Below, piece by piece: positions 40,955 through 54,320 of a stretch of 64,000 nt of DNA. How positions within the stretch are numbered: position 1 is the first letter of the stretch; each line of letters opens with the position of its first letter. The stretch comes from Pseudomonadota bacterium. GTDB lineage: Bacteria; Pseudomonadota; Alphaproteobacteria; SHVZ01. The stretch lies in contig JACQAG010000003.1 in assembly GCA_016195085.1 (NCBI GenBank), positions 1 through 64,000 of the forward strand, given 5' to 3'. Made by a program: the position numbers and the translations under genes. The notes below the pieces were generated by a model. It had not been told where the DNA came from. It ran no database searches and saw only the letters and a list, made by a program, of their open reading frames with translations.

Positions 40955-42024
40955 GCCGCCTCCAGATTCTTGAAGACGACCGGCGGCGCTCCGGCCGGGC
41001 GCGGGGCGAGCGTGCCGATCTTGAGCACCGTCTCGCCGGCGGCCGCGAGGACTGTCGCCGCCGCCTCGGCTTCGGTTGCCGCCACGATCAGCACCATGCC
41101 GATGCCGCAGTTGAAGGTGCGCGCCATCTCTCTGGGCTCGATCCCGCCTGTGCGCTGCAGCCAGCGGAACACCGGCGGGATTTGCCAGGCGGCGAAATCC
41201 AGGTGCAGGCCGAGCGCATCGGGATAGCTGCGCGGCGGATTCTCGATCAAGCCGCCACCGGTGATGTGGGCGAGACCCTTGATCGCACCCTTGCCGGCTC
41301 GGATCGCCGCCAGGCACGGCTTGACGTAGATCCGCGTCGGCGCCAGCAAGGCACGAGCGAGAGTCTCACCGGCGGCGAACGGCGCCGGGGCGTCATAGGC
41401 GAAATCCGATGCCTCCACGACGCGGCGCACCAGCGAGAAGCCGTTCGAATGCAATCCCGAGGAGGCAAGGCCGAGCACGATGTCGCCGGCTTCGGCTTTG
41501 CTGCCATCGATCACCTGGTCGCGCTCGACCGCGCCCACGGAGAAGCCGGCGAGGTCGAAGTCCTTGGCGGCGTAGAGGCCGGGCATCTCCGCGGTCTCGC
41601 CGCCGATGAGCGCGCAGCCGGCCTGGCGGCAGCCTTCGGCGATGCCGGCGATGACCGCGCGCGCGGCCGGCACCTCGAGCCGCCCGGTGGCGAAGTAGTC
41701 GAGAAAGATCAGGGGCTCGGCCCCCTGCACCACGAGGTCGTTGACGCACATCGCCACCAGGTCGATCCCGACCGTGTCCAGGATCCCGGTGTCGATGGCA
41801 ATCTTGAGCTTGGTGCCGACGCCGTCGGTCGACGCAATGAGGATGGGATCCTTGTAGCCGGCCGCGCGCGGATCGAACGCGGCTCCGAACCCGCCGATCT
41901 CGCCATCGGCGCCGGGGCGCTTGGTCGAGCGGGTCAAGGGCTTGATCGCCTGAACCAGCGCCTCGCCGGCGTCGATGTCGACACCGGCCTTCCGGTAGTC
42001 GAGGCTGTTGCGACCGCGGGTTAT
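40942..42024 (-). CDS. purM: Phosphoribosylformylglycinamidine cyclo-ligase (start codon missing or non-canonical)
   Basis: AIR synthetase, fifth step of purine synthesis. The body is intact: [52 protein letters not shown]. The conserved N-terminal tail ([23 protein letters not shown]) is encoded in frame upstream of the first available TTG (41937), so true coding reaches at least position 42008. Yet no ATG, GTG or TTG is in frame between it and an upstream stop. An ATG at 42029-42027 is one base out of frame. The end given is the in-frame ATA; a one-base indel or non-canonical start is likely. Confidence 0.85.
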
Positions 42025-42092
42025 GGCATCCTCGTGGGGGCTGGGTTATATGTGTGCGGCGCCCGACAATAAATCATCGCGGACGGTTTGCA

Positions 42093-43280
42093 ATGGCGCT
42101 GGCCGGTGGCCGCCTTCGCTCGCTCTTTTGGTGCTTGCTGTTGGCAACCGCAGTGTGGTTGCCGGGCCCTATCCATGCGCAGATCGTGCCCGATCAGAGC
42201 GACGATCTGTTCACGGTCAGGAAGGTGCCGGTGGACGTGACCGCGGACACGGCGGCGGCTGCCAGCGTGCGGGCCCTGGCCGATGGCGAGCGGCTGGCGC
42301 TGCAGCGGCTCCTGGAGCGCTTGACCTCCCGCGCCGACGCCAAGCGCTGGCCGCGGCCGGACGATGCGCAGCTCGCGAGCTTGGTGCGGGCACTCGAGGT
42401 CGCCGACGAGCGGACCTCGACCGTGCGCTATCTCGCCAATCTGACCGTGCATTTCAATCGCCAGGCGGTCCGGCGAATGCTGAACGAGGCGGGTATCGGC
42501 CTCGTATCGGCACGCGCCCGGCCGGTCATCGTGCTGCCGGTCTATCGGCTGGCCGGAACATCGTCCTTGTGGGAGGACCCCAACCCCTGGCGGGCGACCT
42601 GGGCCGGCCATCCGCCCGGCGGAGGATTGGCGCCGGTGGTAGTGCCGATCGGCGATCTCGACGATGTGGCTGCGATCAATGCGGCTCAGGCTCTCGCCGG
42701 CGACGGCCAGCGCCTCGAGGCTATCGCCCGGCGATACGGCGCCGAGGGGACGGTCGTCGCCGTCGCCACCCTGGCGATCGATCAGGACAATGGCATGCCG
42801 CGCCTCGACCTGTCGGTGACCCGCTATTCCGGCGGTCGCGACAGCACCACGGTCACCTCGCTGACCGGCGTCAACCGCGATACCGTGGCGCCGCTGCTCG
42901 ATCGCGGCGTGGATCAGGTCTTGAGCGATCTGGACGAGGCGTGGAAGGCCGACAACGCCCTCCAGTCCGCGGGCGAGGAGCAGCGGCTGGTGGCAACGGT
43001 CGGCTATGAGGGCGTGACGGAATGGCTGGAGCTGCGTCGGCGCCTCGGCCAGATCGCGGCGGTCAGGCGGGTGGACATCGTCCAATTCGGCCCGCACGAA
43101 GCCCGCCTCAATATCACGTTCTTCGGCGAAAATGCGCAGTTGCGCCAGCTCATCGCCCAGGCCGGCATCGAGAGCTTGGAGCGCGAGGAGGATCTGCAGC
43201 TGCGCCTTGCTCCCGGCGCATCGAGCCTGTCGGCGTCGGGCGGCGGAGCGCCCGCGACCATACCCGTCCAGAAGCCGTGA
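42093..43280 (+). CDS. DUF2066 domain-containing periplasmic protein
   Basis: 395 residues with a signal peptide (LFWCLLLATAVWLPGPIHAQ), then a DUF2066-like body (VPVDVTADTAAAASVRALADGERLALQRLLERL) with no TM helix. DUF2066 proteins have no established function but are often beside purM and an AI-2E permease, as here. ATG 42093 is preferred over 42054 because it gives a clean signal peptide. It is divergent from purM and overlaps the next gene as GTGA. Confidence 0.85.
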   Translation: MALAGGRLRSLFWCLLLATAVWLPGPIHAQIVPDQSDDLFTVRKVPVDVTADTAAAASVRALADGERLALQRLLERLTSRADAKRWPRPDDAQLASLVRALEVADERTSTVRYLANLTVHFNRQAVRRMLNEAGIGLVSARARPVIVLPVYRLAGTSSLWEDPNPWRATWAGHPPGGGLAPVVVPIGDLDDVAAINAAQALAGDGQRLEAIARRYGAEGTVVAVATLAIDQDNGMPRLDLSVTRYSGGRDSTTVTSLTGVNRDTVAPLLDRGVDQVLSDLDEAWKADNALQSAGEEQRLVATVGYEGVTEWLELRRRLGQIAAVRRVDIVQFGPHEARLNITFFGENAQLRQLIAQAGIESLEREEDLQLRLAPGASSLSASGGGAPATIPVQKP

Positions 43281-48421: not shown

Positions 48422-48471
48422 GGGCCTAATCGAGAAGTTCGCCGGACAAGGCGGCTCCTGCACTTTGATGG

Positions 48472-48570
48472 TGCGTCCTTCGACAAGCTCAGGATGAGGG
48501 GGATTGTGCGTCGCAGAAAGACCGGAGTGGCAGAAAGAAAAGCCTCGTCCTGAGCTTGTCGAAGGACGCA
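48472..48570. repeat. Inverted repeat, 28-base arms (dispersed palindromic element)
   Basis: Arms at 48472-48499 and 48543-48570 are reverse complements with a single mismatch in 28 bases, separated by 43 bases. The arm core (CCTTCGACAAGCTCAGGA) is a sequence often seen as a dispersed palindromic repeat in high-GC bacterial genomes. It lies in the 200-base gap between a plus-strand SDR gene and the minus-strand VOC gene, where it could also act as a bidirectional terminator. Confidence 0.85.
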
Positions 48571-48622: not shown

Positions 48623-49117
48623 CTAGACGCGGGCCTTGGCTCCTGTTCGCGAGCGCTGCTGGCGCTTGCGCTGTGTCGCCGCCTTTTTGGTTGCGGACCG
48701 TTGGCGCGCGGCTCGCGCGCGGCGCTCGCCATAATGCATGCCTTCGAGCTTGAGCCCGTCGGGGTCGAGAAAGAACACCGCATAGTAGTCGTCGTAGTAC
48801 TCGCCGGCAGGATCGACGATCGTGGTCCCGAGCGCCTCGAGGAATGCCTGCAACGCATCGACGTCCTTGCGGCTCGCCAAGCGGAAGGCATAGTGGTGAA
48901 TGCCGACATCGCCGATGCGATGCTTTTTCCGGCGGCCCTTGGCATCGGCGGCGCCGATCCAGAAAAGCGTCTTGCCGTTCGCCCACCCCATGGCATCGGC
49001 GTATTCGGCCTCGACGTCGAAACCGAGGAATGCCATGAGGCGGCTATAGAACGCCTTCGAGGTCTGATAGTTGCCGACCCTGATGGAAAGATGATCGATC
49101 CCGGTCACGCGCACCAT
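48623..49117 (-). CDS. VOC-family protein with basic C-terminal tail
   Basis: 164 residues. Residues 1-128 form a vicinal-oxygen-chelate (glyoxalase/bleomycin-resistance) domain: ITGIDHLSIRV-like opening with His9, GIHHYAFRLASRKDVDAL in the middle and DPDGLKLEGMHYGE at the end, which supply the metal-binding His/Glu set. The last ~35 residues are almost entirely Arg/Lys/Ala/Gln, an unusual basic tail that could bind nucleic acid or be disordered. It starts 29 bases after the selenoprotein-like gene on the same strand, so the two are probably co-transcribed. Confidence 0.83.
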   Translation of the reverse strand: MVRVTGIDHLSIRVGNYQTSKAFYSRLMAFLGFDVEAEYADAMGWANGKTLFWIGAADAKGRRKKHRIGDVGIHHYAFRLASRKDVDALQAFLEALGTTIVDPAGEYYDDYYAVFFLDPDGLKLEGMHYGERRARAARQRSATKKAATQRKRQQRSRTGAKARV

Positions 49118-49146: not shown

Positions 49147-49689
49147 CTACTTGACCAAGCAGAATCCCTGCGCCTCGACGCCGAGCGCCGGATTGAACTT
49201 GCTGCGGAAATTCTCGAGCGCGACCGCCGCCGTGAGCTCGACGATCTCAGCCTCGGTGTAATGCTGCTTCAGCCGGCCGAAGAAGGCATCGTCGATCTTC
49301 TGGCCGGTGATCGTCATCCGCTCGGCATAGTCAAGGGCGACCCGCTCCGGCTCGGTGAACAGCCGGCTGTCGCGCCAGGTCGCCACCTCCGCCAGTTTCG
49401 CCTCGCCGCCGTCGCTTTCCATCACACGGATGGAATTGATGTCAATTCAGAATGGGCAGCCATTGATCGAGGCGACGCGGAGATAGATGAGCGGCAGCAG
49501 CGCCTGCGGAAGTCGCCCCGACTGGGCGATGGAGGCGCTCAAAAGCTTGGCGGCGCGCAGGATCGGCGGGCAATGGGCCATGACCTTGGTCGGGTTCAAC
49601 AGGTCGCCGAATATCTCGCGTTCCTTCTTGAACGTCTCCGCCAAGGTCGGGTCGCCGCCGTCATCGTCGATTTCGCTCACCCGTGGCAT
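49147..49689 (-). CDS. Carboxymuconolactone decarboxylase/AhpD-like protein with in-frame UGA (probable selenoprotein, CxxU)
   Basis: AhpD-like alpha-helical protein, 180 residues if UGA (49449-49447) is read through. Upstream half: MPRVSEIDDDG... to LRVASINGCPF (80 residues); downstream half continues in the same frame with IDINSIRV... to GFCLVK. Family members read NGCPFC-IDINS here, so UGA replaces exactly the second Cys of the redox CxxC. No other stop or frameshift interrupts the 543 bases. AAGGTGG precedes the ATG at 49689. A hairpin at 49417-49435 matches bacterial SECIS spacing. A nonsense mutation is the alternative. Role: probable thiol/selenol peroxidase or reductase. Confidence 0.78.
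49417..49449 (-). promoter_or_regulatory. Putative bacterial SECIS element with its UGA codon
   Basis: On the minus strand, UGA (49449-49447) is followed by 11 bases, then a perfect 7-bp stem (UUCCAUC paired with GAUGGAA, 49435-49429 with 49423-49417) closing a 5-base loop CGUGU. The loop begins 18 bases after UGA, inside the distance seen in bacterial selenocysteine insertion elements, and contains GU as SelB-binding loops do. A bulged U as in the E. coli element is not evident. SelB/SelC are not in this window. Confidence 0.6.
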
Positions 49690-49758
49690 TGTTCCACCTT
49701 CCGTTCCGATAGTGACGATATAGTGCGTTTTCCGATTCGAAGAAAGGAGTGCGGAGCC

Positions 49759-51330
49759 ATGCGCGCTTGGATCTTCGTTGTTGCGCCGATGCTGCTCGCC
49801 AGCGTTGCCGGCTCGGCGGAGCCGCCGAAGGTGCTGCGCTATGCGCCGGCCGCCGACTTGACCTCGTTGGACGCGCAGACGAACGGCGCGCTGGTGACCG
49901 CCGAATACGGCATGATGGTCTATGACACGCTGTTTTCCATGGATGCCACCCTGGTGCCTCGCCCGCAGATGATCGAGGCCTACACGGTGGCGCCGGACGG
50001 TCTCAGCTACGCCCTCACGCTCCGCGCGGGCCTCAAATTCCATGACGGCGCGCCGGTCACCAGCGCCGATGTGATCCCCTCGATCCGTCGCTGGATGAAG
50101 CGCGATCCGTTGGGGCGGAAAATGGACGCGGCTCTCGCCGCCTTCGAGGCCGACGGTTCCGGCGGCTTCCGGATGACGTTCAAGACCCGCTTTCCCTTTG
50201 TCGAAATGGCATTGGCCTGGACCGGGTCAGGCATGGCCGCGATCCTGCCCCGGGCAAGCGCTGAGACCGATGCCTTCAAGCCCGTCACCCAGTCGGTCGG
50301 CTCCGGCCCGTTTCGGTTCCTGCCCGAGCTCTGGCGCATCGGCAACTCCGCCGCCTGGGAGCGAAACCCCGACTATATGCCGCGCGCCGAGCCGCCGAAC
50401 GGGCTCGCCGGCGGCAAAGTGGCGAAGCTCGACCGCATCGAGCTCAAATATCTTCCCGACGCCGGCACCCGCGCCAATGCGCTGAAGGCGGGCGAGATCG
50501 ATCTCATCGACCTCTTGCCGGTCGATCTGGTGGCCGTGCTGCGCCCGGACCGGAATATCGTCGTGGACCGGCTTTCGCCCTTCGGCGGCGAGGGCGTCAT
50601 CCGCATGAACCACCTGCAGCCGCCATTCGACAATCTGAAGGCAAGGCAGGCATTGGCCCTCACCGTAGTGCAGGCGGAATTCATGGGTGCCGCCTATGGC
50701 GATCCCGCCTGGTGGGAGCCGAGCTGCTTCTCCTGGTTCGTCTGCGGTTCTCAGAACGGCACCGCGGCGGGGTCCGAGCCTTATCGCCAGCAGGATCTCG
50801 CCCGCGCCAAGGAGCTGCTGGCGGAGTCCGGCTATCGGGGCGAGCCGATCGTGATCGTGACCGCCGCCGATGTGCCCTCGCAATATGCGATGGCGCAGGT
50901 GGCCGCCGCCAATCTCCGCAAGATCGGTGCCGCCGTCGACCTGCAGATCGTCGATTTCGGCCAGGTGATGGTGCGGCGGGAGAACCGCAATCCGCCCGCC
51001 GCCGGCGGCTGGAACCTGATCGTGCTCGGCTTCAACGGCATGTTCCTCTCCTCGCCGATCACCAACCCGGCGATCGATTCCCGCTGCGGCGAGGCGCTGT
51101 TCGGTTGGCCATGCGACGAGACGGTGGAGCGGCTGCGCACCGAGTATATGAACGAGGCCGATGCCGAGAGGCGCCGGCCGATCCTGGAGGCGCTGTCGCG
51201 GGCCGCCTGGGCCTCGCTACCCTCGGTGCTGACCGGGATGTACTACAACGCCTATGCTTGGCGCAGCGACGTCAAAGACTTGCTCCACGCCACCCAACTC
51301 GTGTTCTGGAACGTCGACAAGGTGCGATGA
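49759..51330 (+). CDS. ABC transporter substrate-binding protein, family 5 (peptide/opine type)
   Basis: 523-residue periplasmic binding protein with signal peptide (IFVVAPMLLASVAGSAE). The family-5 signatures are LRYAPAADLTSLDAQ, YDTLFSMDATLVPRPQMIEAYTVAPDGLSY and FHDGAPVTSADVIPSIRRW. No permease or ATPase genes sit beside it, so it is an orphan that may serve another transporter. ATG 49759 follows GGAG. It is divergent from the AhpD-like gene across a 69-base gap. Confidence 0.92.
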   Translation: MRAWIFVVAPMLLASVAGSAEPPKVLRYAPAADLTSLDAQTNGALVTAEYGMMVYDTLFSMDATLVPRPQMIEAYTVAPDGLSYALTLRAGLKFHDGAPVTSADVIPSIRRWMKRDPLGRKMDAALAAFEADGSGGFRMTFKTRFPFVEMALAWTGSGMAAILPRASAETDAFKPVTQSVGSGPFRFLPELWRIGNSAAWERNPDYMPRAEPPNGLAGGKVAKLDRIELKYLPDAGTRANALKAGEIDLIDLLPVDLVAVLRPDRNIVVDRLSPFGGEGVIRMNHLQPPFDNLKARQALALTVVQAEFMGAAYGDPAWWEPSCFSWFVCGSQNGTAAGSEPYRQQDLARAKELLAESGYRGEPIVIVTAADVPSQYAMAQVAAANLRKIGAAVDLQIVDFGQVMVRRENRNPPAAGGWNLIVLGFNGMFLSSPITNPAIDSRCGEALFGWPCDETVERLRTEYMNEADAERRRPILEALSRAAWASLPSVLTGMYYNAYAWRSDVKDLLHATQLVFWNVDKVR

Positions 51331-51336
51331 CCCCGG

Positions 51337-52185
51337 TCACGCCGCCATCCAAGCGCGCACCGTCTTGACCCAAGGGCTCTCCCGGCGGCCGCCGTCGATG
51401 CTGATCTGGAAATGGTCGAAGCCTTCGAACACCTGATGCTCGACGCGGCATTTCTCTCGCTTGAGAGCCTCGACCATGGGCATGCCGGTGGTCATGACGT
51501 GATCCAGATCGCGGCTGCCCCAGGCGATGTAGAACGGCACGGCGTTGCCGGCGACATGGCTGATTGGGCTCGCCTGAGCCGCGTCCTCGGGCCGGGCGAG
51601 CAGGTCTTTGCCGCGTTTCTCCAGATCGCCCAGCTCGAACTTGAAGGTGGCGCTCACCGGAAAGCAGGCGCGGAGCGCGGCTAGCGGCACGCCGGCAGCC
51701 GCTAGCAGGTCCCGGCGCAAGGCAGCGAGGCTGGCAAGATGCCCGCCGGCGGAGTGTCCGCCAATGAACAGGCGCTCCGGGCTGCCGCCATAGCGCGCGA
51801 TATTTCCATGCACCCAGGCGAGGGCCGCGACCGAGTCTTCGAGAGGTGCGGGGAACCGCACCTGGGGCAACAGCCGATAAGAGACGGAGACGAAGATCGC
51901 CGGCAGATCGGTGAATGAGGGGGCCATGTACCCCATCCATTCCTTGTAGCCGTTCGACCAGCCGCCGCCATGGAGGAACACCAGCACGGGCAGATCGCGG
52001 AGCCCGGTTGCCTCGGGCAGATAGAGATCGAGGCGCTGCCAATAGTCTTCCCCATAGGCGATATCGAGGGCCACGCGGCTGGAGCGGGCTACTTGGCGCG
52101 ATCGCTCCAGGATCTCGGCGGCATAGGCCTGTGCTGCCGGCCCCATCTTTTCCTGCGACTGCACCGGCAGACTGTCGAACGCCAT
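51337..52185 (-). CDS. Alpha/beta hydrolase (esterase/kynurenine formamidase-like)
   Basis: 282-residue hydrolase of the BD-FAE/alpha-beta hydrolase 3 type. It has the oxyanion loop HGGGWSNG, nucleophile Ser in GGHSAGGHLAS, acid Asp in WGSRDLDHV and catalytic His in FEGFDHFQ. No signal peptide. Substrate is not determinable; such proteins often cleave arylformamides or short esters. An AGGAAGAGG site precedes the ATG. It converges on the solute-binding protein gene. Confidence 0.88.
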   Translation of the reverse strand: MAFDSLPVQSQEKMGPAAQAYAAEILERSRQVARSSRVALDIAYGEDYWQRLDLYLPEATGLRDLPVLVFLHGGGWSNGYKEWMGYMAPSFTDLPAIFVSVSYRLLPQVRFPAPLEDSVAALAWVHGNIARYGGSPERLFIGGHSAGGHLASLAALRRDLLAAAGVPLAALRACFPVSATFKFELGDLEKRGKDLLARPEDAAQASPISHVAGNAVPFYIAWGSRDLDHVMTTGMPMVEALKREKCRVEHQVFEGFDHFQISIDGGRRESPWVKTVRAWMAA

Positions 52186-52240
52186 GAAGCCTCTTCCTTT
52201 GCTCGGCCCGCTCGACCGTCGGCGGGCGCCGCCTTCGCCC

Positions 52241-52522
52241 CTAACGCACCTCGACGTCGTCCCAGAACCCGAAGCGCTGGGCGACCTGCTTCATCTTGGG
52301 GAGCGGCGCCTCGTAGGACCAGGCGGCGCGTTCGTGGCGTGCCCCATCGATCACCACGTCGTAGAACTGCACGCCATGCGGGCAGGCGTGATCCGACTCC
52401 GTCTTCGGGGCCTTCTTCAGCCATTCGGTACGCACCGCGGCGCTGGGGAAATAGTGATAGCCGCCGCACTCGACGATGTCGGCGCTCTCGGCGACCACGT
52501 GACCGTTCAGGACTGCCTTCAT
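52241..52522 (-). CDS. DUF427 domain-containing protein
   Basis: 93-residue protein wholly made of a DUF427 fold (KAVLNGHVVAESADIVECGGYHYFP, HACPHGVQFYDVVIDG, AAWSYEAP). Members have no settled function. ATG 52522 has AAGGAGG upstream, which rejects the 20-residue longer frame. It lies 70 bases downstream of the acyl-CoA ligase on the same strand. Confidence 0.88.
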   Translation of the reverse strand: MKAVLNGHVVAESADIVECGGYHYFPSAAVRTEWLKKAPKTESDHACPHGVQFYDVVIDGARHERAAWSYEAPLPKMKQVAQRFGFWDDVEVR

Positions 52523-52592
52523 GCCGGATCCTCCTTCGCTAACCCAGTCTAGGATGTGGGGCCTGGGCCGACGCCCCGTCAAGGGAGAGAAA

Positions 52593-54320
52593 TCATGACG
52601 GCGCGCTCGGCGCCGTCGCCGTCGTCTGCCGCTTGGCCGCCTCCTCGGCGATCAGTTCCTTCTTCGACAGCTTGCCGATGAGAGTTTTCGGCAAAGCGTC
52701 GCGGAACTCGATTTCGCGCGGCATCTCGATCGACGACAACCGCTCCTTCAAGAACGCCTTCAAGGTCTCTGCGTCGAGAACCGCACCGGTCTTGAGCTTG
52801 CAGAACGCCTTCGGACTCTGGCCGCGATAGCTGTCGGGGACGCCGATGACGGTCGCTTCCTCCACCGCCGGATGCTGGTAGATCGCCTCTTCGATGTTGC
52901 GGGGGTAGACGTTGTAGCCGCCGCAAAGGATGAGATCCTTGATGCGGTCGACGATGAAGACATAGCCGTCCTCGTCCATGCGGCCGACATCGCCGGTGCG
53001 CAGGAGCCCGTCGATGAAGACCTGGGCGGTCGCCTCCGGTTGCCGCCAGTATCCCGCCATCACCTGCGGGCCGCCGATGCAAATCTCGCCGCGATCGCCC
53101 AGCGGCACCACGCGGTGCGGGTCCTCGAGATCCCTAAGCTCGACCCTGGTGCCGGGGAACGGCAAGCCGATGGAGCCTTCCTTGTTCAGCCCATAGAGCG
53201 GGTTGCAATTGCTGACCGGCGAGGTCTCGGTCAAACCGTAGCCCTCCACCAGCTTGCAGCCGGTCAAGGCCTCGAAGCGCTGCTTTACCTCCAACGGCAG
53301 GGGCGCCCCGCCGGAGAGGCAGTTTTCGATCGAGGCGAGGTCGTAGCGTCCGTCGGCATTGGCTGTATTGATGGCGGTGTACATCGTCGGCACGCCGGCC
53401 ATGAAGGTCGGGCGCTTCTTGTGGATGGTGCGGAGCACCGTCTTGATCTCGAAGCGCGGCAGCATGATGATCGCGCCGCCCAGCGCGATGCCGACATTCA
53501 TCAGCACCGTCATGGCGAAGACATGGAAGAACGGCAGCACCGACAGGAGGCGGACCCGCCCATACTCGACGCGGGTGAACCAGAGCCGGCATTGCTCGAC
53601 ATTGGCGGAGAGGTTGCGGTGGGTCAGCATCGCCCCCTTGGGCGTGCCGGTGGTGCCGCCGGTGTACTGCAAGACCGCGACCGCCGTGGCCGGATCGATT
53701 GCGACCGGCGCATAAGCGCCGTCATTGGCGATGAGGTCGGCAAAGCGCACATGCCCGGGACCCGCGGCAATGCGCGCGAGGTCGTGGCGCCGAACCCAGG
53801 GAAACAGCAGGCGCTTCAGCCCCGGCAGCGCATCGGCCATGGAGCACACGACGATGGTCTCGAGCGCGCTCTGGCCTCGCTGCTGCGCCAGCTTCGGATA
53901 AAGCACCTCGAGGTCGAGCGTCACCATGATGCGCGACTGGCTGTCGTCGATCTGCTTTTTCGTCTCCGGGGGAGCATAGAGCGGATTGAAATTGACCACG
54001 GTGCCGCCCGCCTTGAGCACCGCGTAGTAGCAGATGACGGAATAGGGGCAGTTCGGAAGATAGAGCCCGACCTGCACGCCGGGTCCGACGCCGAGCGCCT
54101 GGAATCCCTTCGTCGCCCGGGCGACCAGCCGGCCGAGCTCGGCATAGGTGATGATGCGATCGAGGAAGTCGATCGCCGGGAGATGGCCGAAGCGCTCGAC
54201 CGAGCGGTCGAGGAGCTCACCCAGGCTCACCGACGGGATCGGCGCATCCCAGCTGATGTCCGGCGGGTAATGCGGGCTCAGATCCGCGCCGCCTGCGGCA
54301 ATGGAGAGGTGCGGGGTCAC
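52593..54320 (-). CDS. Long-chain fatty acid-CoA ligase (AMP-binding)
   Basis: 575-residue adenylate-forming enzyme that activates fatty acids to acyl-CoA. It shows the P-loop-like YTGGTTGTPKGAMLTHRNL, the GYGLTETSPV motif, the TGDVGRMDEDGYVFIVDRIKDLI hinge and the C-terminal lysine region ETLKAF...LPKTLIGKLSKKEL. GTG 54320 is the start. Exact chain-length preference cannot be read. It follows the BASS-like transporter gene by 19 bases on the same strand. Confidence 0.92.
   Translation of the reverse strand: MTPHLSIAAGGADLSPHYPPDISWDAPIPSVSLGELLDRSVERFGHLPAIDFLDRIITYAELGRLVARATKGFQALGVGPGVQVGLYLPNCPYSVICYYAVLKAGGTVVNFNPLYAPPETKKQIDDSQSRIMVTLDLEVLYPKLAQQRGQSALETIVVCSMADALPGLKRLLFPWVRRHDLARIAAGPGHVRFADLIANDGAYAPVAIDPATAVAVLQYTGGTTGTPKGAMLTHRNLSANVEQCRLWFTRVEYGRVRLLSVLPFFHVFAMTVLMNVGIALGGAIIMLPRFEIKTVLRTIHKKRPTFMAGVPTMYTAINTANADGRYDLASIENCLSGGAPLPLEVKQRFEALTGCKLVEGYGLTETSPVSNCNPLYGLNKEGSIGLPFPGTRVELRDLEDPHRVVPLGDRGEICIGGPQVMAGYWRQPEATAQVFIDGLLRTGDVGRMDEDGYVFIVDRIKDLILCGGYNVYPRNIEEAIYQHPAVEEATVIGVPDSYRGQSPKAFCKLKTGAVLDAETLKAFLKERLSSIEMPREIEFRDALPKTLIGKLSKKELIAEEAAKRQTTATAPSAPS

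Follow-up and report, generated by a model that had tools for sequence, protein, structure and literature searches.

We have identified, on the minus strand of a 64,000-nucleotide stretch of bacterial DNA (here called the window), a gene at positions 49147..49689 that encodes an AhpD-like protein of the carboxymuconolactone decarboxylase (CMD) fold, 180 residues long, and whose internal UGA codon 81 is almost certainly decoded as selenocysteine (Sec). Judging from sequence evidence, we put the probability of this reading at about 0.96, because the reading frame, the Sec machinery of the genome, the presence of TGA throughout the clade and a covarying SECIS hairpin all point the same way. The first-pass annotation of this DNA had proposed a CxxU selenoprotein in which UGA is read as Sec. 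That proposal is supported by the sel genes, by the distribution of TGA and Cys among relatives and by the hairpin.

The gene runs from an ATG at 49689 to a TAG at 49149-49147 and consists of 80 codons, the TGA (49449-49447), another 99 codons and the terminal stop. With TGA written as U, its translation reads MPRVSEIDDDGG...SINGCPF-U-IDINSIRV...AQGFCLVK-stop, and neither a further stop nor a frameshift is present between 49689 and 49147. A Shine-Dalgarno-like sequence, GGAAGGTGG, is read directly just 5´ of the ATG (49690..49710, minus strand). When aligned with relatives, the TGA occupies the position of the second Cys of the CxxC motif, giving the CxxU motif NGCPF-U-IDIN. These observations bear out what was originally noticed, namely two halves of 80 and 99 residues lying in one frame, separated by a single TGA exactly at the second CxxC Cys, with no other lesion and with a ribosome-binding site. 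The coordinates given for the gene were also correct, and we add the minus strand, left unstated at that time.

The close clade comprises 85 sequences: 80 loci from a scan of GTDB genomes, four from a search of the class, and the window gene itself. The 84 close homologues are 56-78% identical and belong to Alpha-, Beta- and Gammaproteobacteria and to Rokubacteria; in the GTDB scan, Reyranella, Enhydrobacter, Vineibacter and other Alphaproteobacteria are among the taxa bearing them. Without exception, all 85 sequences have TGA at codon 81 and exactly one internal stop. In the distant sequences, on the other hand, the same position is occupied by Cys (TGC/Cys in 30 of 30), and this residue is confined to relatives of at most 41% identity; a survey of 386 genomes of the class and 399 of the phylum turned up no close-clade member with Cys. 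The homologue alignment, recommended by the first-pass annotation as a check, shows this codon in two states only, TGA or Cys.

Could the gene be a pseudogene, created by a chance nonsense mutation at the codon of the second Cys and now decaying in both halves? In favour of this, the frame is broken at this point, and TGC stands there in relatives outside the clade. However, the TGA is common to all 85 close sequences, none of which has another lesion, residues 3´ of it are invariant across the clade, the SECIS hairpin covaries and the Sec machinery is present, which leaves this explanation with an almost negligible probability. The recurrence of TGA at exactly that codon in 85 of 85 sequences is far beyond chance, as had been argued for its placement from the window alone. 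The same conservation rules out a sequencing error.

In a maximum-likelihood tree, a single branch (95/79; 94% of bootstrap trees) separates the Sec sequences from the rest. Beside them stand the nearest 23 Cys sequences, and other Cys paralogues lie further out. In a tree rooted at midpoint only, this arrangement points to an ancestor with Cys and one change from Cys to Sec. The selB gene was found in five of five class genomes with the TGA form (four of the five come from one family and are not independent), as against 54 of 386 genomes overall and three of ten with the Cys family. In six other genomes of the family to which the window belongs (G001-G006), no close homologue of the window gene was found, and loss, incompleteness or horizontal transfer may account for its absence. 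Within the same family, selB is present in three of the four other genomes searched (G002-G004, not G006). Some of the homologues come from metagenome-assembled genome (MAG) records with implausible names such as Klebsiella pneumoniae, Asaia and Rhizobium (L049, L050, L054 and others). Their genes group with those of Reyranella or with betaproteobacterial ones, and the labels look wrong.

Eleven nucleotides past the UGA begins a bacterial SECIS (bSECIS) hairpin, UUCCAUC-CGUGU-GAUGGAA (49417..49435, minus strand). The published bSECIS model specifies a loop of 3-9 nt, a stem of 4-16 bp, a G among the first two loop nucleotides, a distance of 16-37 nt from UGA to loop and a minimum free energy (MFE) of -7.5 kcal/mol or lower (PMC13188914). 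All these features are found here: the stem has 7 bp, the 5 nt loop CGUGU carries G at position 2, the distance from UGA to loop is 18 nt, and the MFE of -9.2 (47 nt) or -7.6 (34 nt) is within the limit. Compared with shuffled sequences, the folding energy of the single sequence is unremarkable (z 0.32 for 47 nt and -1.4 for 34 nt), and the case for a SECIS element therefore rests on covariation. Among 47 distinct sequences, 97.3% of stem cells are paired and five of the seven pairs display double changes. Covariation scores 0.368, compared with an average of 0.119 after shuffling, and the real value was reached in none of 500 shuffles. When the pairing partner is slid by 1-3 columns, pairing falls to 32-54%. 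The encoded amino acids vary along with the pairs within NSxRVxE (I...M, V...T, S...L, A...V), as would be expected if pairing of the RNA is what has been selected.

Twelve sequences (L106, L029, L096, L098, L101, L104, L107, L109, L110, L114, L116 and L119), from Rokubacteria and a Vineibacter/Reyranella group, use an alternative stem, GCAUC(A/C)-loop-(U/G)GAUGC, which has the same loop position and is 100% paired. The sole homologue without a hairpin, locus L113 (1676-2164), retains the TGA and has a deletion of about 50 nt right after it, which removes the hairpin; this MAG locus is likely decayed or misassembled. Rfam returned no match in the window, a result that carries no weight against a gene-specific bSECIS.

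The source genome is a 4.81 Mb draft in 95 contigs, 95.9% complete. A search of it for selA, selB, selC and selD, likewise recommended at the outset, located all four on contig C84, so that SelA, SelB, SelD and tRNA-Sec are all present. The gene for tRNA-Sec lies at 53863-53954 (77.8 bits with the covariance model, anticodon tca by ARAGORN), selB at 51923-53800 (432 bits), selA at 49776-51104 (540.6 bits) and selD at 41562-42467 (292.5 bits), the three protein scores being over their cut-offs. Two weaker hits of the tRNA-Sec model, also above cut-off, are tRNA-Ser according to ARAGORN. The search for other selenoproteins in the genome went family by family. The gene for the alpha subunit of formate dehydrogenase, fdhA, contains a TGA in frame at the canonical position, NQARV-U-HGPTVASLAP (2514-2516 of locus L025, which spans C84:42000-58000), and the Sec machinery thus has another, orthodox client. 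Genes of the sel system flank the fdh cluster: selD precedes it, and selA, a SEL1/TPR-like gene, selB and tRNA-Sec follow.

Near-cognate tRNAs are known to read through UGA in bacteria, and codon 81 might be read in this manner without selenium, for example by a tRNA for Trp or Cys, or under a reassigned genetic code. Yet TGA serves as an ordinary stop codon for selA, selB and several genes of the window, which rules out a global reassignment of UGA. Moreover, reading without selenium needs no covarying bSECIS-type hairpin, whereas one is kept in all homologues but one, and all class genomes searched that carry the TGA form also have selB. We consider such selenium-free decoding very improbable and retain decoding as Sec.

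With regard to protein family, the window protein matches the Pfam CMD model (PF02627) at 38.7 bits, against a gathering score of 23, and has CxxU at the CxxC site of the CMD/AhpD-like domain, as the pfam02627 form of CxxU selenoproteins does. TIGR01926 scores 36-49 bits on the clade, under its cut-off of 81.8, and we file the gene under the broader pfam02627 CxxU kind; TIGR00778 is below cut-off in most members scanned. The best NCBIfam match, NF053654, yields 119.8-156.3 bits in eight members against a cut-off of 310, which excludes membership, and no NCBIfam subfamily model is above cut-off for the window protein. An AlphaFold2 model is all-helical with a mean pLDDT of 78.9, low in the tails. 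Its best PDB match by fold is the AhpD-like protein PA0269 (TM 0.90 by target), followed by Atu0492 and Bmp8, and sequence searches agree on PA0269 as the best PDB match.

Both M. tuberculosis AhpD and PA0269 employ a proton relay of five residues, which in the former are Glu118, Cys130, His132, Cys133 and His137; the Glu stands 12 residues before the first Cys, His or Tyr before the second Cys, and His four after (PMC3141380). In the Sec clade, the first relay Cys persists, Sec stands in for the second, and the other three of these five residues are replaced. The relay Glu has become Ala or Pro in 81 of 85 sequences, the His/Tyr has become Phe in all 85, and the last His is Asn in all 84 that could be aligned. 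The loss cannot be put down to Sec, as the Glu and the His are missing from the nearest Cys family as well. A C-terminal Cys177 is shared by the 85 Sec and the 23 Cys sequences, and H39, E159 and R162, invariant in the Sec clade, are replaced in most Cys relatives. Taken together, the lack of an NCBIfam model above cut-off, the loss of three of five relay residues and the invariant C-terminal Cys indicate that the subfamily is probably not a classical AhpD. The AhpD/carboxymuconolactone decarboxylase assignment of the first-pass annotation consequently holds for the CMD match and the AhpD-like fold, but probably does not extend to an AhpD peroxidase, the relay Glu and His being missing.

We propose that SelB, acting on the hairpin just past UGA81, would deliver Sec-tRNA-Sec, and that the ribosome would then read through UGA81 to yield the 180-residue protein, in which Cys78-x-x-Sec81 would form a redox pair where an alpha helix begins. 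This pair most likely carries out thiol/selenol redox chemistry. The first-pass annotation took the replaced residue for the resolving Cys, but Sec usually is the attacking residue; ionised at neutral pH, Sec81 would attack an oxidised or electrophilic substrate, most likely a peroxide or a disulfide. A Cys78-Sec81 selenenylsulfide would form next and be reduced by a cellular thiol donor. Cys177 lies on the C-terminal tail, which is modelled with low confidence; as a candidate third redox residue it may resolve the intermediate or pass electrons. Sec needs no base for its activation, which fits a site devoid of the relay, yet the relay is equally dispensable in the Cys family. Reduction of peroxide or disulfide is the default expectation.

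Other functions have been considered, none of which affects the decoding of UGA81 as Sec. A bona fide Sec-containing AhpD, working as alkylhydroperoxidase or adaptor with a proton relay, would be expected to match CMD in Pfam, to have an AhpD-like fold closest in the PDB to PA0269 and to carry CxxU at the AhpD CxxC position, as this protein does. Given the replacement of three of five relay residues, TIGR01926 scores under cut-off throughout and TIGR00778 scores under it in most members, and no conserved peroxiredoxin neighbour among the neighbours sampled, this function is conceivable, if unlikely. A selenol reductive dehalogenase is another candidate. The protein would then be a Sec relative of the CMD debrominase Bmp8, with chemistry like that of the selenoprotein deiodinases. 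Bmp8, which we take to use a deiodinase-like thiol mechanism, aligns over nearly the full length (profile E 3e-16) and resembles the model in fold (Foldseek E 5e-5 to 8e-5). Nevertheless, Bmp8 is surpassed in sequence and fold similarity by the AhpD-like proteins PA0269 and Atu0492, and no conserved halogen-related gene context was seen in the neighbourhoods sampled, making the dehalogenase quite improbable. It is also improbable that the clade would be an unnamed Sec-only CMD subfamily, without relay and with the invariant C-terminal Cys, whose selenol chemistry is something other than peroxide reduction, such as deiodinase-like dehalogenation as in Bmp8.

Gene neighbourhood gave no functional clue: serA, ECH, GreA, MOSC, ABC binding proteins and others are found beside the homologues, varying by lineage. 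Neighbours in the window are SDRs, a dienelactone hydrolase-domain protein, an ABC binding protein and a VOC protein. The gene for the last (glyoxalase/VOC family, 48623..49117, minus strand) lies 29 nt downstream of the selenoprotein gene and is possibly co-transcribed with it; this adjacency is not conserved beside homologues. Inverted copies of a repeat-like sequence (TCCTTCGACAAGCTCAGGATGAGG / CCTCGTCCTGAGCTTGTCGAAGGA) are located in intergenic DNA beside the VOC gene, at 48470-48570.

The window gene is a well-supported addition to the CxxU AhpD-like/CMD selenoproteins already known since the Sargasso Sea survey of 2005. New beyond the known kind are the occurrence of Sec in every copy found, the position of the window protein outside all NCBIfam subfamily models, the altered surroundings of the active site and the two solutions for the SECIS stem. 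The presence of Sec in 85 of 85 close sequences, and of Cys in none, suggests that selenium is hard to replace in this protein. Two stem registers with one loop position offer a natural test of SelB recognition. In this genome, and in dozens of others of Reyranella-type, betaproteobacterial or rokubacterial affiliation, standard annotation likely splits the gene or labels it a pseudogene.

CxxU selenoproteins of the AhpD-like (COG2128) and CMD (pfam02627) types were described from the Sargasso Sea (PMC1088965) and in the GOS survey (PMC2398784), as the first-pass annotation had noted for AhpD-like selenoproteins in metagenomic surveys, and AhpD-like CxxU selenoproteins are listed in reviews of 2022 and 2026 (PMC9312934, PMC13188914). 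Two forms have been published, AhpD-like 1 (COG2128/YciW, TIGR01926) and AhpD-like 2 or CMD-like (pfam02627), the latter reported to be more abundant in non-marine samples (PMC2398784). With the published proteins the window protein shares the superfamily, Sec in place of the second Cys and a bacterial SECIS just 3´ of the UGA, the clade having been compared with the two forms by model scores and published descriptions. According to the GOS table, both AhpD-like families have more Cys homologues than Sec forms (PMC2398784), whereas every close relative found here has Sec. NF053654 (GroundWater_YciW, 'YciW-related (seleno)protein'), which covers residues 1-175 of 179 with E 5e-37, represents a related family; the window clade scores far under its curated equivalog cut-off of 310.

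Of proteins with known structure, PA0269 from Pseudomonas aeruginosa (2O4D, 2IJC, 7XW1) has the same all-helical AhpD-like fold and aligns with residues 42-172. It has Cys instead of Sec and keeps Glu36, Tyr50 and His55 (PMC3141380), which correspond to Ala/Pro, Phe and Asn in the Sec clade, and it has no counterparts of the N-terminal ~30 residues and the C-terminal QGFC tail of the window protein. The debrominase Bmp8 (6OHI, 6OHJ) is similar in length and fold and has CxxC at the same place, but with 22% identity to the window protein it is further away than PA0269. Closest among Cys proteins is a family of 23 sequences, 33-41% identical, with the pattern CxxC-x3-N ... QGFC/QGLC. It has CxxC/U-x3-N, Cys177 and the missing AhpD Glu and His in common with the Sec clade, and differs from it in having Cys at position 81 and in the replacement, in most members, of H39, E159 and R162. 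The two groups provide a ready comparison of Sec and Cys.
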